DNA from: Gemmatimonadota bacterium
GTDB taxonomy: Bacteria; GCA-2686955
Length of the DNA stretch: 34,639 bases
Assembly (NCBI GenBank): GCA_002686955.1
Contig: NYZA01000170.1
Location: forward strand, 1 to 34,639
Direction: 5' to 3'
This document shows, in pieces, positions 2,426-34,457 of the stretch (position 1 is its first letter; the number at the start of each line of letters is the position of its first letter). The notes beneath the pieces are model-generated. The model ran no database searches and was not told the DNA's origin. It worked only from the letters and a program-made list of their open reading frames with translations. The translations under genes were made by a program, and so were the position numbers.

Positions 2426-3862
2426 GTGACCCTATTTCAACAATTCTCGGGTGTCGCCCACGAAGCGGGAGCGCGGGACGCTGTGCTGGAGGTCGATTCC
2501 GGCAGGAAGACCAGCTACCGCGCCCTGCTTCGTGAAACGAACCGGAGAGCCGAAGGCCTCGTGTCGTCGGGAGTGCGTCCCGGGGACCGAGTCGGCATCG
2601 AGCTCCACAATCGATTGGAGGGACTCTACTCGATGTTGGCGGTTTGGCGCTGTGGGGCGGTCGTCGTGCCATTGGTTCCGACCCAATCGCGCCGTGAGCG
2701 AACGACCTTTCTCGAACACTCCGGCGCAGTGCTGCAAATGGGCGCCGATTCGGAAGATCGGGCGGTGGGTGGAGCGCCGCGCCGGAAGGCGATCGAGGTC
2801 GAAGTCGATCCAGGCGACACCGCGCTCATCCTCTACACATCCGGCACCACCGGTGCTCCCAAAGGTGTCGAGCTGACCCACGCCAACCTCTGCACCAGCG
2901 CGGAGCGCATCGGCGCCCGGTACGCCTTCGGCCCGGCCACTCGTTTCTTGGGAGTTTTGCCGCTATATCACGGCCACGGCCTGGTCGTCACCTGCCTCGC
3001 CCCACTCCTGGCGGGGGGGACCGTGGTGCTCGACCGCCCCTTCGATGCCTTCGCCGCCGCTCGCTTCTGGAAGAGCGTGGATCGATTCGGCATCACGGCA
3101 TTCAGCAGCGTGCCTCCGCTGCTGCGTTTGCTGGTCCAATTGACCGAGCCACGAGCTCTCCATTCCGAGAGCCCGCTCCGGTTCGGGCTCTGCGCATCGG
3201 CGCCGCTCTCCGAAGCGCTCCGCTCCGACTTCGAGGAACGTTTCCAATGCCGAGTGGGCAATTCGTACGGCATGACCGAAACGTCATCTTGGTGTGCCTA
3301 CGGGGCACCCGAACCGGATTGCCGCCTGAGCGGCTCCGTCGGCTCGCCGGCGGACGGCACCATCCGCATCCTCGAACCGTCGCCGGGTGGCGTGAGCGAG
3401 GGTCCCGTCGGCGAGATCGCCGTGCGAAGCCCCTGCGTCATGAAAGGCTACTATCGGGATGCCCGGGCGACGGCCGAGGTCTTCGAAGGGGAGTGGTTTC
3501 GGACGGGAGATCTGGGCTTTCTCGAGGGGGGGGAGCTATTTCTGAGCGGTCGGTTGCGCGATGTGATCAACCGGAGTGGCGCGACGATCTTCCCCGACGA
3601 AGTGGATCGGCTCCTGCGAGACCATCCGGGGGTGGCGGACGCGGCAACAGTAGCGCGGCCCTCCGAGGCTGAAGGGGAGATCCCTGTCTCTTTCGTCGTG
3701 CTCGATCCGGGTGTGGGTATGTCGCTGGCCGAGCTCGAGCGCTATCTGAGACGGGAGCTGGCCCCGTACAAGGTCCCTGCCGATTTGATCGAGCTCGACC
3801 ATCTTCCGGTGGGTGCGACGGGCAAGGTCGACAAGAAGGCGCTGCGAGCCCGGACCACGTAA
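2426..3862 (+). CDS. AMP-dependent acyl-CoA/acyl-ACP synthetase (ANL superfamily)
   Basis: 478 aa, GTG start; ILYTSGTTGAPKGVELTH P-loop-like motif, YGMTE, GEWFRTGDLG, C-terminal PxxxTGKVDKKALR lysine motif. Confidence 0.93.
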   Translation: MTLFQQFSGVAHEAGARDAVLEVDSGRKTSYRALLRETNRRAEGLVSSGVRPGDRVGIELHNRLEGLYSMLAVWRCGAVVVPLVPTQSRRERTTFLEHSGAVLQMGADSEDRAVGGAPRRKAIEVEVDPGDTALILYTSGTTGAPKGVELTHANLCTSAERIGARYAFGPATRFLGVLPLYHGHGLVVTCLAPLLAGGTVVLDRPFDAFAAARFWKSVDRFGITAFSSVPPLLRLLVQLTEPRALHSESPLRFGLCASAPLSEALRSDFEERFQCRVGNSYGMTETSSWCAYGAPEPDCRLSGSVGSPADGTIRILEPSPGGVSEGPVGEIAVRSPCVMKGYYRDARATAEVFEGEWFRTGDLGFLEGGELFLSGRLRDVINRSGATIFPDEVDRLLRDHPGVADAATVARPSEAEGEIPVSFVVLDPGVGMSLAELERYLRRELAPYKVPADLIELDHLPVGATGKVDKKALRARTT

Positions 3863-4192
3863 TCACCCGGGGCGGCGATGAAGGCGGTGGTATCTCCCGA
3901 GCTCTCGGGGACTAACGTGACCGTCCCGATCGGAGTCGAGTTCCTCGAACTCCCAGTCCTGCAGCTTCAGCTCGGTTCTGGAGAGGCGGCCGTCGCCGTC
4001 CAGATCTCGATTCTCGAACTCGCGAAGCGCGAGCTTGGCCCAACCCCAATGAATGGCCTGGCCGGTCCCGACGGGACGCACCGCGGCGGATGGGCGCTCG
4101 GCGAAGCTGTCTCGTCCGGCTGAGCTTCGCAGCTCCACGAAGACCGTCACCGCTATCAGTCCAATCCCCGCCGTCGCCATCAATACCCGCAT
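3863..4192 (-). CDS. Small EF-hand domain protein with N-terminal signal/anchor
   Basis: 109 aa; hydrophobic N-terminus; two EF-hand loops DLDGDGRLSRTE and DSDRDGHVSPRE. Confidence 0.8.
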   Translation of the reverse strand: MRVLMATAGIGLIAVTVFVELRSSAGRDSFAERPSAAVRPVGTGQAIHWGWAKLALREFENRDLDGDGRLSRTELKLQDWEFEELDSDRDGHVSPRELGRYHRLHRRPG

Positions 4193-28974: not shown

Positions 28975-29457
28975 TTACTTGTGCCGCTTCCCTTTGCGCT
29001 TGCGGGCACTTCCGCGGGGCGGGGCGTGAAAGACGATTCGCTCGCTGTGTCGCTTCATGATCCAGTAGGCGACCACGATTCCGACGCCGAGGGTGGCGAG
29101 GCCGGTGAGGAGGATTCCGATGAGCTGGACGACGCCCGATGCTCGGTAGAGGGGGTAGCCGGCGGGGCGGCGGCCGGTTTGCTGCCAATGACGCAGCACG
29201 CGGGTGTCGGAGGAGCCGCGCAAGTGGGTGCCGGCCAATACGATGCCTGGGATCAGGGCGAGGGTGAGCTGCAGGGCGGCGTCGGCGCGGATCGAGGTGG
29301 CGTCGTCGTCCGGGGAGTGCGCGACGGAGCTCCAGACGCGGCGGCGGGCTCGATCGGCGGCTTGATCGTGGAGTCTGCCCGGGTGTTTGCCCCGATAGGC
29401 GGCCCGCAGGAGCTTCGTTCGGGCCTCGATGCTCTTCGATGAGGTGGACGCCGGCAT
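28975..29457 (-). CDS. Small membrane protein, two predicted TM helices
   Basis: ALQLTLALIPGIVLAGTHL and GVVQLIGILLTGLATLGVGIVVAYWIM; starts 7 nt after the methyltransferase stop. Confidence 0.65.
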   Translation of the reverse strand: MPASTSSKSIEARTKLLRAAYRGKHPGRLHDQAADRARRRVWSSVAHSPDDDATSIRADAALQLTLALIPGIVLAGTHLRGSSDTRVLRHWQQTGRRPAGYPLYRASGVVQLIGILLTGLATLGVGIVVAYWIMKRHSERIVFHAPPRGSARKRKGKRHK

Positions 29458-29464
29458 GCAATGG

Positions 29465-30256
29465 CTATCGGCATTCGCGGGCGGCCACTGCATAGCGGTT
29501 CAAATGTCCGCCTTCGCCGTCCGACTCGAATTGGGCCGTGGCGCGGAGGCCGGCTCTTTCGAGCAGCGCGGTCTGTTCGTCGGGCGAGAGGTGGTGACAG
29601 TAGCGGTAGCGGTGGGGGGGCGGTCCCCAGCGCAGGATCGCGTCCCCTTCTTCGAGATCGTCCGGGTCGATCCCGAGCTCGCGGCCGGTGGGGGTGGCGA
29701 CGAATTCGTTCCAGGGGACGGTGCGGCGCGCGAAACGGGGCGCGTGCGCGAAGCGCCAGAAGGTGAGGGCGATCCGTCCGCCGGGCGAGGGTTGGCGAGC
29801 GAGGAGCGGGGCGAGGGTGCGCAGGAGCGCGAGGCGTGTATCGAAGCCGGGGATGTGATGCATCACTCCGAAGAGGGCGATGAGGTCGTAGCGGCGGCGG
29901 GCGATGGGTGGCGGGATCGCGGCTTCGATGAAGTCGCACTTTTCGAAGCGAAAGTGCGATTCGTCTGGGGTGGGGACGGTGGAGCATTCGCGTATGAGAG
30001 GCTCGCTCGCGTCGGCTCCGGTGTAGTCGAGCGCGGTTTCCGTGTTTTGTTGGAGGAAACGCGCGAATCGCCCGTTTCCGCAGCCGAGGTCGAGGACGCG
30101 CAGGGGGGATGCGAACGATCGATCCTGGAGCAGGATCGGCATGAGGCGGCTCCAGCCCGGCCAGGGCCTGGCGCGGCTCGCCGAGAACTCCGCCGCGGCT
30201 TCGTCGTAGAAGCGGCGGTTGAGTCGATTCAGGGCGTCTGCCGTGGCGGGTTTCAT
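29465..30256 (-). CDS. Class I SAM methyltransferase, Trm9/ABH8-like
   Basis: LNRRFYDEAAAEFSASRARPWPGWSRL N-terminus, VLDLGCGNGRFARFL, LIALFGVMHHI, and EGDAILRWGPPPHRYRYCHHLSPDEQTALLERAG resembling the Trm9 YRYYHLYREGEL tail. Confidence 0.85.
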   Translation of the reverse strand: MKPATADALNRLNRRFYDEAAAEFSASRARPWPGWSRLMPILLQDRSFASPLRVLDLGCGNGRFARFLQQNTETALDYTGADASEPLIRECSTVPTPDESHFRFEKCDFIEAAIPPPIARRRYDLIALFGVMHHIPGFDTRLALLRTLAPLLARQPSPGGRIALTFWRFAHAPRFARRTVPWNEFVATPTGRELGIDPDDLEEGDAILRWGPPPHRYRYCHHLSPDEQTALLERAGLRATAQFESDGEGGHLNRYAVAARECR

Positions 30257-30507
30257 CCGGGCCGGTGGCCGCCGGAGCCGCAATCGGGGGGAGGCGATTT
30301 CTCTGCGTTCGGCAGAGCGGAGCGGCGAGCCAGCTCCGCATCGACAACACTCCGGTAGCGATACAGACCGCTTTTCATCGTTCTAGGAGCTAGGAGGGTC
30401 GCGCGGCTCCAGAGCGAGGCGAGCCGTCTGATATGTGCGGGGCTACCCTGCTCACAATGGGGAGGGGGCGGCATTTCTTCGACCGAGCGATACTTGCGAA
30501 CCGGCAT
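30253..30507 (-). CDS. Small conserved-looking protein (PVRKYRSVEEM type)
   Basis: 84 aa between nucleotidyltransferase (6-nt gap) and methyltransferase (ATGA overlap); internal HRY/YRYRS pattern. Confidence 0.75.
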   Translation of the reverse strand: MPVRKYRSVEEMPPPPHCEQGSPAHIRRLASLWSRATLLAPRTMKSGLYRYRSVVDAELARRSALPNAEKSPPPDCGSGGHRPG

Positions 30508-30513
30508 TTCCGA

Positions 30514-30990
30514 TCAGTCCTCGGGATCATCGATGTCGAAACGCCGTCGCAAGGCGCTGGCATCCGCGCGATCGACCTCTCTGACCGTGTCCTTCTTCAT
30601 ACGGTAGAGGGCGAGCGGGGTCGCGACGGTCATGGCGACGCGCCCCAATTCCATGCGTTGACTTTCGATGTCATCGAAGCCGAATGCGTCACCGAAACGG
30701 GCTACGATGTCGAGATAGAGTTCTCCCTCGGGAGGGACATAGCGCAACGCGGGGTACTCTCCGGCCAGCTCCTCGGCCCTGATCTCATCGATCGAAGGGT
30801 CATCCCAGATCGACCGGAGCGATCGGCGCAGTCGGTCGACGTTCTCCGCAGTGGGGCGGATCATCACGTCGATGTCTTCGGTCGCGCGAATCAGTCCGTG
30901 GGCGTTCACGGCCGCTCCACCGATCACGACGTACTCGACTTCCTCCTCTTCAAAGGCTGCGAGTATTTGTTCCAGCTCGTCCAGCGTCAC
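30514..30990 (-). CDS. Nucleotidyltransferase (DUF6036/AbiEii-like)
   Basis: VEYVVIGGAAVNAHGLIRATEDIDVMIRPTAENVDRL nucleotidyltransferase motif. Confidence 0.85.
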   Translation of the reverse strand: MTLDELEQILAAFEEEEVEYVVIGGAAVNAHGLIRATEDIDVMIRPTAENVDRLRRSLRSIWDDPSIDEIRAEELAGEYPALRYVPPEGELYLDIVARFGDAFGFDDIESQRMELGRVAMTVATPLALYRMKKDTVREVDRADASALRRRFDIDDPED

Positions 30991-31018
30991 GGCTTGCCTC
31001 CAATCCGCGGCTCCCTCT

Positions 31019-31039
31019 CCACGGTATCATCTATCGTGG
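31019..31039. promoter_or_regulatory. Dyad CCACGGTATCATCTATCGTGG in the divergent promoter region
   Basis: CCACGgTA...TAtCGTGG inverted repeat in the 83-bp gap between nucleotidyltransferase and Elp3 starts. Confidence 0.35.
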
Positions 31040-31073
31040 CGGGTTGCATGGGGAGCGAATACGATGGTGGATT

Positions 31074-32762
31074 ATGGACCGCGAGCGACACCGAGAGTTC
31101 GAGAGCTTCGAGCCGAGGGCCTACGAGAACGAGCTGGCTTCGATTCTGCGGGCGGTCGGTGCGTTGCCGGAGGTCGATTCTCGATCGTTGGATAAGATTC
31201 TGCGGGCGAATCCGAAGGATGGGAAGGGGTTCTTCTCACGATCGGAACTCATCGCGGGGGTGCGGGCGCTCGGCGATCGGCACGATTTCGGGCTTGGTGA
31301 GCGGCAACTGATTGGGCGTCTGCTTCGAAAGCCGACGCGAACCTGGAGCGGTGTCGCGCCGGTTACCGTACTGACTGAGCCTCATCCCTGCCCTGGAAAA
31401 TGTGTTTTTTGCCCGAGCGATGAGGGGATGCCGAAGAGCTATCTGGCGAGCGAGCCGGGGGCGCAGCGGGCGGTTGCCAACAGTTTCGATCCTTTTCGGC
31501 AGACCTGGAATCGGGTGGTTGCGCTTCATCGTCTGGGTCACGCGGTGGACAAGGTCGAGCTGTTGATCTTAGGCGGCACGTGGACGGCGTATCCGCAGGC
31601 ATACAGGGTTTGGTTCGTGCGGCGCTGTATCGATGCTCTGAACGAGGTCGGCGATTCTCGCTGGGACGTGCGCCGCGGCGGGGACGATGGGGGCGCTGAG
31701 TGGGTAGCGGGGGCGGGGGATGCGGATTGGAAGCGCTTGGTGGCGACGCAGGATCGCAATCGGCGCGCGAGGTGTCGCTGTGTCGGGTTGGTGGTGGAGA
31801 CGCGGCCCGATCATGTGGACGAAGAGTCGGTGGTGCGGATGCGTCGCTTGGGGGCGACGAAGGTCCAGTTGGGAATCCAAAGCCTCAGCGACGATATTTT
31901 GCGGCGGAACGAGAGGGGTCACTCGGTCGAGCAGAGTCGGCGGGCCGTGAGGCTCTTGCGCCGAGCCGGGTTCAAGATCCATCTGCACTGGATGCCGAAT
32001 CTCGTTGGGGCGACGCCGGAAAGCGATACCGAGGATTTCGGGCGCCTCTTCGGCGACGAGTCGATCCGTCCAGATGAGCTGAAGATCTATCCCTGTTCTT
32101 TGGTGCGGGGGACGGAGCTCATGCGGCTGCACTCGCGGGGGGATTGGAGGCCCTATTCGCATGAGGAGTTGATGGCGGTTCTCGTCCATGCTCTGGCCAA
32201 CACTCCGGAGTATTGCAGGGTGTCTCGTGTCGTTCGCGACATTCCCGGCAACGAGATCGTTGCCGGAAGCACCGTCACGAATCTCAGGCAGGAGCTCGAT
32301 CGTCGCCTTATCGAGCTGGGGGTAGAGACGAGGGAAATTCGGGGTCGGGAGATCCGCGGTGGAGTGTACGATGCGCGTTCGATTCGACGGGAGCGCTCCT
32401 TCTATGGGGCCGATGCGTGTGAGGAACACTTTTTGCAGCTTACGAGCGATGATGGACGTCTGTTGGCCTTTTTGCGTATGTCGCTTCCTTGGGAGCGGGG
32501 GTTCATCGAGGAGCTCGGCGGGGCCGCGATCGTTCGCGAGGTTCATGTCTATGGAGCCGCCGCTCGGCTGCACGAAAACGATGGGGCGAAGGCGCAACAT
32601 TCAGGGTTGGGGCGCCGCCTTGTCGAATGGGCTGTGAAGATCGCCCGGGCCGAGGGCTATGAGCGACTGGCCGTGATCTCGGCGGTGGGGACGAAGGAGT
32701 ATTACGAGAAGCTGGGGTTTGAGGATGGGGTGCTTTATCAGCATTGGGGGCGTGGCGGGTAG
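31074..32762 (+). CDS. elp3: Elp3-family tRNA wobble-uridine radical SAM/GNAT enzyme
   Basis: PHPCPGKCVFCPSDEGMPKSYLASEPGAQRA radical SAM motif, LGGTWTAYP, ETRPDHVDEESVVRMRRLGATKVQLGIQS, HLHWMPNL, C-terminal GNAT QHSGLGRRLVEWA...YYEKLGF. Confidence 0.95.
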   Translation: MDRERHREFESFEPRAYENELASILRAVGALPEVDSRSLDKILRANPKDGKGFFSRSELIAGVRALGDRHDFGLGERQLIGRLLRKPTRTWSGVAPVTVLTEPHPCPGKCVFCPSDEGMPKSYLASEPGAQRAVANSFDPFRQTWNRVVALHRLGHAVDKVELLILGGTWTAYPQAYRVWFVRRCIDALNEVGDSRWDVRRGGDDGGAEWVAGAGDADWKRLVATQDRNRRARCRCVGLVVETRPDHVDEESVVRMRRLGATKVQLGIQSLSDDILRRNERGHSVEQSRRAVRLLRRAGFKIHLHWMPNLVGATPESDTEDFGRLFGDESIRPDELKIYPCSLVRGTELMRLHSRGDWRPYSHEELMAVLVHALANTPEYCRVSRVVRDIPGNEIVAGSTVTNLRQELDRRLIELGVETREIRGREIRGGVYDARSIRRERSFYGADACEEHFLQLTSDDGRLLAFLRMSLPWERGFIEELGGAAIVREVHVYGAAARLHENDGAKAQHSGLGRRLVEWAVKIARAEGYERLAVISAVGTKEYYEKLGFEDGVLYQHWGRGG

Positions 32763-32793: not shown

Positions 32794-33222
32794 CTACTTC
32801 GCGGAATCCCGCCCATCCCGCTTCAAGATCGCCTGGGAGTAGTCCAAGAGATCATCCAGATGCTTGGTGATGATCGCCACGGCCACGGGGAGCTGCAAGG
32901 TCTGGTAGTCGTGCACGACGATGTTGCGAAAGCCCACCATCGATTTGAGCTTCGCCGCCAGATCTTCGCTGATCCAGCCACCGCGCGCCAAGAGATCGAA
33001 GACATTTCGTGCCCCTTGGGGAACTCCGAGTCGCTGGCGGCGGATGAGGTGCTGTCCCATGTCCAGCGCCGCCTCGCAAGCGCGTTGTATGTTGAGGATC
33101 GCGGCATCCTGACGAGTGAAGTCGGAATCGAAGGTCCCGGGGTCCTTGTCGTACTCCTCCCGGGCCCGGGCCACGCAACGTTCGATGGTGGCGGCCTTGT
33201 TCAAGAGCACGTCATCGCTCAT
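32794..33222 (-). CDS. hepT: HepT-like HEPN ribonuclease toxin (DUF86)
   Basis: MSDDVLLNKAATIERCVARAREEY...IQRACEAALDMGQHLI; RNIVVHDY matches RX4HXY. Confidence 0.92.
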   Translation of the reverse strand: MSDDVLLNKAATIERCVARAREEYDKDPGTFDSDFTRQDAAILNIQRACEAALDMGQHLIRRQRLGVPQGARNVFDLLARGGWISEDLAAKLKSMVGFRNIVVHDYQTLQLPVAVAIITKHLDDLLDYSQAILKRDGRDSAK

Positions 33223-33607
33223 GGATCCTCCCATCGCGTTGGATGAGCTCGAGAAGCGGCGCGCGGGCCTCGCCCAGGGCGGTCTTTTCACTCAAGACCA
33301 TGGTCTCGAAGAGCGCCGCCTGGTGGTCCTTGGCCCAGAGCTGCGTTCCGGTGATGATGACCTGATACTGCATGACCGTCGTGGCGGCTCTCAGGTCGAG
33401 CAGATCCACTGTGCAGGAGGCGCGCTCCGCGAGAGCGCCGGCCAGCTCCCAGAGGGCCAGAGGGGCGACCCTGCCTTCCACCAAAACCGCCATGTCCAGG
33501 TCGCTCTCCGGCCCGGCTTCGCCCGTGGCGCGGCTGCCGAAGGCGTAGATCGCCAGCAGGGTCGGCAGGCCTTGGCGCAGCTCATGAATCAGCGGATCCC
33601 AGGTCAC
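33212..33607 (-). CDS. mntA: MntA-like nucleotidyltransferase antitoxin
   Basis: GTG start VTWDPLIHELRQGLPTLLAIYAFGSRATGEAGPESDLDMAVL; GSX10DXD motif; overlaps hepT start by 11 nt. Confidence 0.9.
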   Translation of the reverse strand: MTWDPLIHELRQGLPTLLAIYAFGSRATGEAGPESDLDMAVLVEGRVAPLALWELAGALAERASCTVDLLDLRAATTVMQYQVIITGTQLWAKDHQAALFETMVLSEKTALGEARAPLLELIQRDGRIHER

Positions 33608-33767
33608 GGCACTGGCTCCTGATCGGTGTTCTCGTAGAGCATACCGCCTCCGTGACCGGACGGGAGTCCGCGTCGGGGTGGCAGTGTCGCCGGGAACCCC
33701 GGGGAACGTAACGGCTTGATCCGCCCGCGGCGGCCCTTCTCTTCGAAATGGCAGGCGAGCACCCGCA

Positions 33768-34457
33768 GCCGACTTCGGCCGTAAACGAGAAGGTCTTGGC
33801 CTTTCCGTTCCGCCGCTCCGCATACATGAAATCGTCCCACTCGCCGTTGGCGGTGTAGATCGCGCCCGATTTCGGATTCCCGGCGAGATAACCGTTGAAT
33901 CGCGTGGCCTCGTCGCCGAGGGCGTAGAAGAGAGAATGGTCGGGCGTGTCGGCCCGCGTGTAGCTCCACGTATAGAGGAAAAGGTCGCCGTAGGCGTCGG
34001 TCAGATCGTGGATCAGCTCCAGCGGGATCTCGACGGTGATCACCTCGCGGGCATGGGTGTTGCCGATGAAGAGCAGGGCGGGCTCATCCGCCTCTTCGAT
34101 ATCGGGCTGATCGGTGATCTTCACCGCCCAGATGCTCCGATCGGCACCCATGTTCACAGTTTCCCAGGTGGGACCGAGTTCGTAGACGCGCAATATATCG
34201 GAATGATCGAGGACCGCCCGATCGAGCTCGTCGAGCATCTCGTCGTAGGTGTGGTACGCGCCCATATCGCCGTCGGCGTCGACACGATCGTCGAACTCGG
34301 CCTGGACGTCTTCGATGAGCGTGAAGCCGTGGTAGCTGAGCCGACGGAGGCGCATCCGCTGCGCGGGAGTCACCAGAATATCGAGATCCCCCCAGGCGGT
34401 GGGCTTAGCGTCATGCTCCGGCTGGTTCGGTACGGAGCCGAGGATCGCCAAACCCAC
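33768..34457 (-). pseudogene. Decayed M14 zinc carboxypeptidase
   Basis: WGDLDILVTPAQRMRLRRL, LLFIGNTHAREVITVEIPLELIHDLTDAYG joined directly to DLFLYTWSYTRADTPDHSLF...SGAIYTANGEWDDFMYA...FSFTAEVG; the central NPDG/second zinc His block is absent, and no family-like sequence follows the catalytic Glu. Confidence 0.75.

Follow-up and report, generated by a model that had tools for sequence, protein, structure and literature searches.

An Elp3 gene divergent from a Trm9-like methyltransferase gene as a candidate bacterial route to mcm5U34 in place of MnmE/MnmG

Chemistry at C5 of the wobble uridine (U34) of tRNA is usually split between two sets of enzymes, MnmE/MnmG in bacteria and Elp3 followed by Trm9 in eukaryotes and archaea. 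The window analyzed here, a 34,639-nucleotide contig of a Gemmatimonadota bacterium (NYZA01000170.1), raises the question of whether a bacterium can use the second set, as an Elp3 gene (31074–32762, + strand) lies divergent from a minus-strand operon that encodes an S-adenosylmethionine (SAM)-dependent methyltransferase (29465–30256). The contig belongs to a metagenome-assembled genome, G000, of 4.28 Mb and 84.5% completeness. The original prediction, made from the DNA alone, proposed a two-step eukaryote-like U34 pathway, and it is supported at the level of sequence by the observed gene identities, conserved catalytic residues, linkage and co-occurrence of the two genes and absence of MnmG, together with a family profile that ranks Trm9 first. 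We consider it likely that Elp3 forms 5-carboxymethyluridine (cm5U34), that the methyltransferase converts this to 5-methoxycarbonylmethyluridine (mcm5U34, or the 2-thiolated mcm5s2U34 with MnmA), and that the pair stands in for MnmE/MnmG.

The Elp3 gene has an ATG start and encodes a 562-residue tRNA U34 carboxymethyl transferase with radical-SAM and lysine acetyltransferase (KAT) domains (PF04055, PF16199, and PF00583). The protein matches TIGR01211 over its full length with 461 bits (E = 3.3e-138; curated cut-off 350), and its matches in the PDB comprise archaeal MinElp3, the Dehalococcoides mccartyi enzyme (DmcElp3), and human and yeast Elp3, with E values of 1e-94 to 1e-76. Residues important in MinElp3/DmcElp3, namely K150, K266, Q461/E386, and Y517 (PMC6367351) as well as E207, K302, and Y304 (PMC13315578), were transferred to the window protein through the alignment of these PDB matches. 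The Fe-S cluster cysteines C106, C110, and C113 and the acetyl-CoA/acetate-handling residues K160, E242, K301, K337, Y339, and E489 are identical in 81 of 81 Elp3 sequences (the window and 80 relatives), and at position 543 Tyr occurs in 73 of them and Trp in the other 8. By these sequence comparisons the window Elp3 is genuine and keeps its mapped catalytic residues.

The methyltransferase comprises 263 amino acids and starts at an ATG at 30256, in agreement with the start kept in 56 relatives. Searches with the single sequence (Pfam, NCBIfam, and phmmer against the PDB) return generic class I methyltransferases only; the label of a generic methyltransferase was dropped, as family profiles searched against a PDB set of 177,635 sequences rank Trm9 first. 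A profile of six relatives places Yarrowia Trm9 (5cm2) at the head of the PDB matches with E = 1.8e-11, and the 56-sequence family profile (A6) gives 5cm2 at E = 3.4e-17 with the next match at 2.5e-11, a lead of almost six orders of magnitude. The alignment of the profile to 5cm2 begins at the motif TRYKPWP and ends at the motif RYRYYHLYREGEI. The window protein carries the motifs FSASRxxPW (R28, W32), VMHH (H133, H134), RYCH (R218, C220, H221), and LNRY (N253). Yeast Trm9 residue numbers were placed on these motifs through those of 5cm2, a placement that we presume to be correct. All 56 family sequences carry R28, H133, R218, and H221, and 52 of the 56 carry N253; in yeast Trm9 the residues R29, H115, R241, Y243, and N271 are required for tRNA binding and orientation of cm5U34 (PMC5372719). 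An AlphaFold2 model of the methyltransferase shows a class I methyltransferase fold with a predicted local distance difference test score (pLDDT) of 87.6 and a predicted template modeling score (pTM) of 0.88. On its family profile the enzyme is Trm9-like and founds a bacterial family whose kinship is invisible to single-sequence searches, which agrees with the name given in the original prediction; a clustering with small-molecule methyltransferases was not borne out.

The distribution of the two genes bears on whether they belong together. A sample of 290 genomes from across the bacterial families was searched with thresholds of E < 1e-29 for the methyltransferase and the TIGR01211 cut-off for Elp3, and both were found in the same six genomes (G000, G001, G031, G149, G178, and G287; 6/6 compared with 0/284). 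The naive chance of this exact co-occurrence is ~1e-12, a value that overstates independence because the six genomes represent only three families. The methyltransferase gene is adjacent and divergent to Elp3, at a distance of about 30–101 bp, in G031, G149, G178, and G287. In G001, the sole relative of G000 from the same family among the sampled genomes, the two genes are not adjacent, and the impression of no linkage gained from this nearest relative was dropped, as wider sampling shows it to be an exception. A scan of named genomes with an Elp3 alignment gave 80 loci, a set picked by Elp3 similarity in which counts ignore relatedness and taxon labels are those in the record titles. At 56 of these loci the methyltransferase gene is upstream of and divergent from Elp3: 9/9 labeled Patescibacteria, 5/5 Deltaproteobacteria, 14/19 Acidobacteriota, 5/7 Myxococcota, and 15/30 Chloroflexi, with single Verrucomicrobia and Planctomycetes records also among them. 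One of the 24 unlinked loci is that of G001 (L076), and the genomes of the other 23 all encode the methyltransferase elsewhere (best E ≤ 5e-34), so every Elp3 genome examined in the 80-locus set has the methyltransferase. The conserved linkage that the original prediction called for is thus seen, with linkage and co-occurrence kept over about ten phylum-level labels, and adjacency of the two genes is far beyond chance. An accidental neighborhood of Elp3 and an ordinary small-molecule methyltransferase would fit the generic matches of the single sequence and the separated genes of G001, but against the joint occurrence in six of six genomes, the linked loci in many phyla, and the presence of the methyltransferase in the remaining genomes it is highly improbable.

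In genomes with the candidate pair, the usual bacterial enzymes are mostly missing. In the host itself, which the original prediction had singled out for a check of mnmE and mnmG, MnmG was not found and MnmE gave no full-length match; the same holds for G001, G149, and G287, the MnmE model matching in these four genomes only ~120 residues of the GTPase domain, as would be expected from Der-type GTPases. A search of 50 named Elp3 genomes likewise yielded no MnmG, whereas 14 of 14 Elp3-less control genomes contain it and these controls carry full-length MnmE. The completeness of G000 and G001 is 83–85%, and more complete Elp3 genomes are also without MnmG. G000 and nearly all genomes tested encode MnmA, and 2-thiolation is therefore probably retained.

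We infer the reactions of the two enzymes, their tRNA substrates, and the final nucleoside as follows. Elp3 would carboxymethylate U34 at C5 with acetyl-CoA and a radical derived from SAM, yielding cm5U34, a step proposed because of membership in the Elp3 family. The Trm9-like methyltransferase would then esterify the cm5U34 carboxylate with SAM as methyl donor to give mcm5U34, a step proposed because of the kinship to Trm9, the conserved residues, the linkage, and the co-occurrence. The mcm5s2U34 of some tRNAs would arise by additional thiolation by MnmA. For the majority of these bacteria, the two enzymes would replace MnmE/MnmG, which lead to 5-carboxymethylaminomethyluridine (cmnm5U) and 5-methylaminomethyluridine (mnm5U), and in G000 a nucleotidyltransferase gene and its small partner gene would have been inserted between Elp3 and the methyltransferase.

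Several observations weigh against this pathway. G031 and G178, which belong to one family, carry MnmE/MnmG besides the Elp3/methyltransferase pair, and two wobble systems can therefore coexist. Foldseek cannot tell Trm9 from other class I methyltransferases, its top matches being assorted, with METTL6 having the highest TM-score among the matches listed. In the reciprocal search with the single Yarrowia Trm9 sequence, which is a weak one, the methyltransferase ranks first in G000, G031, G149, and G287, does not rank first in G178, and gives no match in G001. The position aligned with Y243 of Trm9 is Cys in 51 of 56 family sequences. Trm112 is the obligate partner of Trm9 in eukaryotes. The Trm112 domain (PF03966) occurs in G000 and nine more of 14 Elp3–Trm9-like genomes, with some matches inside longer proteins, and was not found in the other four, where a short domain can escape detection; the methyltransferase may therefore not use Trm112. 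The substituted tyrosine and the inconsistent presence of Trm112 would both suit an enzyme that acts in the Elp3 pathway and makes a product other than mcm5U, for instance with another cm5U derivative as its substrate or at a different tRNA position. The four positions for binding of tRNA and cm5U (R, H, R, and N) are kept, however, and the profile sets Trm9 well ahead of every other solved structure, which leaves such a different product unlikely and esterification to mcm5U34 the preferred assignment.

The remaining genes of the operon were considered as possible parts of the same system. The minus-strand order is nucleotidyltransferase (NTase; 30514–30990), 84-residue protein (30253–30507), methyltransferase, and a protein with two predicted transmembrane segments (2-TM protein; 28975–29457, ATG at 29457). 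An intergenic region of 83 nt (30991–31073) separates the NTase start from the Elp3 start, a gap of 6 nt lies between NTase and the 84-residue protein, the latter overlaps the methyltransferase by 4 nt, and a further gap of 7 nt follows; the genes, gaps, and overlap of the original prediction are all correct to the base. The NTase is AbiEii/DUF6036-like, with a weak match to Pfam PF08843 (E = 1.1e-4). No match in Pfam, NCBIfam, or PADLOC was found for the 84-residue protein (MPVRKYRSVEEM...) or for the 2-TM protein, and the regions flanking the other 80 Elp3 loci contain no homologue of the latter, which is not conserved with the Elp3–methyltransferase pair. A reading of the NTase genes as a defense system was rejected, as PADLOC yields only a marginal AbiEii match.

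The original prediction had also suggested that the NTase and the small protein are accessory or guard components, which the comparison of loci does not uphold. All four minus-strand genes might form one module in which the NTase and 84-residue protein guard or assist the modification as a toxin-antitoxin-like monitor of U34, and the tight packing of the genes in the window, as well as a second NTase/84-residue pair ~1.9 kb from Elp3 at another locus (L101:3338–4058, the small-protein homologue directly after the NTase at 3807–4058), could be taken to speak for it. The L101 pair, however, stands alone, with the methyltransferase elsewhere in that genome, and no homologues of the NTase or 84-residue protein were found at any other of the 80 Elp3 loci, nor does the pair lie between Elp3 and the methyltransferase at any other locus that has both. 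In other lineages unrelated genes, assigned by eye, occupy the same place. A guard module therefore has very little probability. Because the NTase and 84-residue protein are not between the two genes at other loci and stand alone in L101, they are best described, from these comparisons, as an inserted AbiEii-like passenger pair outside the wobble pathway.

Further observations concern these neighboring genes. An AbiEii-like NTase followed by a protein of 83–84 residues starting MPVRKYR is a two-gene unit that recurs in unrelated genomes (window 30253–30990 and L101:3338–4058). The genes between the methyltransferase and Elp3 elsewhere include, as assigned by eye, a short-chain dehydrogenase/reductase (SDR)-type oxidoreductase in several Thermoanaerobaculia and related Acidobacteria (L088, L089, L091, L103, L107, and L115) and ZIP-like transporters at L081. 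On the other side of Elp3, downstream of and convergent with it, the window contains a HepT/MntA type VII toxin-antitoxin pair (32794–33823, − strand) with scores of 157 bits for the HepT model and 94 bits for the MntA model.

A lower-scoring subtype of bacterial Elp3, with about 300 bits on TIGR01211, was observed at L058:1423–3692 (G069) and L059:680–2811 (G210). In these two genomes, which are of different families, an asparagine-synthetase-like PP-loop gene (PF00733) overlaps or directly precedes the Elp3 gene, and neither MnmG nor a strong Trm9-like match was found in either. The asparagine-synthetase-like protein could amidate cm5U to 5-carbamoylmethyluridine (ncm5U). Taken jointly, we give slightly better than even chances to an undescribed and widespread bacterial mcm5U34 pathway, consisting of Elp3 and a Trm112-independent Trm9-like enzyme, that replaces MnmE/MnmG in whole lineages (Chloroflexi, Acidobacteriota, Myxococcota, Patescibacteria, and others), along with a second Elp3 subtype whose asparagine-synthetase-like enzyme possibly makes ncm5U.

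When compared with eukaryotic Elongator and Trm9–Trm112/ALKBH8, the bacterial pair comprises the same two enzyme families by sequence, with the same Elp3 catalytic residues and Trm9 as the best profile match. It differs in that the bacterial Elp3 stands alone, the genes form a divergent pair, Trm112 is not consistent, Cys replaces Tyr in the RYYH motif, and the pair is found mostly in place of MnmE/MnmG. The archaeal orthologues also combine a stand-alone Elp3 with a Trm9-type methyltransferase and are clustered in one case (PMC5372719, PMC7663514), that of Sulfolobus solfataricus in a 2017 review (PMC5372719); mcm5U34 is present in Haloferax volcanii. The archaeal Trm9 differs in that it comes with Trm112. 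DmcElp3 (5L7J) is a bacterial Elp3 with the same domains as the window protein, described in the literature without a known downstream step (PMC6367351, PMC7663514), whereas in the loci compared here a methyltransferase accompanies Elp3 across many phyla. The Dehalococcoides enzyme has been presented as a rare bacterial case whose modified nucleoside is without direct evidence (PMC6367351, PMC7663514), and a 2026 paper speaks of Elp3 in "numerous bacteria" (PMC13315578). According to the 2017 review, no bacterial genes resembling Trm112-dependent methyltransferases were detectable (PMC5372719). The bacterial MnmE/MnmG/MnmC system, which makes cmnm5U and mnm5U, likewise targets C5 of U34, in tRNAs of the same kind; Elp3 and the methyltransferase are unrelated to its enzymes, and both systems were observed together only in G031 and G178. 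No description of a bacterial Elp3–Trm9 pair was found in the open literature, subscription papers and preprints being outside the search. The pathway type of Elp3 plus Trm9 is known, and what seems to be new is its setting in bacteria, as a divergent pair with MnmE/MnmG replaced, together with a divergent methyltransferase family.

The window holds one copy of this conserved pair, interrupted by two unrelated genes, in a pattern spread over many uncultured bacteria that seem to have swapped the usual wobble enzymes for it. In yeast the pathway requires Elp1–6, Trm9, and Trm112, and with the bacterial pair it could be studied in a simple model of two proteins. The pair would name the missing second enzyme after bacterial Elp3 and is relevant to how the eukaryotic pathway arose, and its occurrence across phyla would explain how purine-ending codons are decoded in those bacteria.

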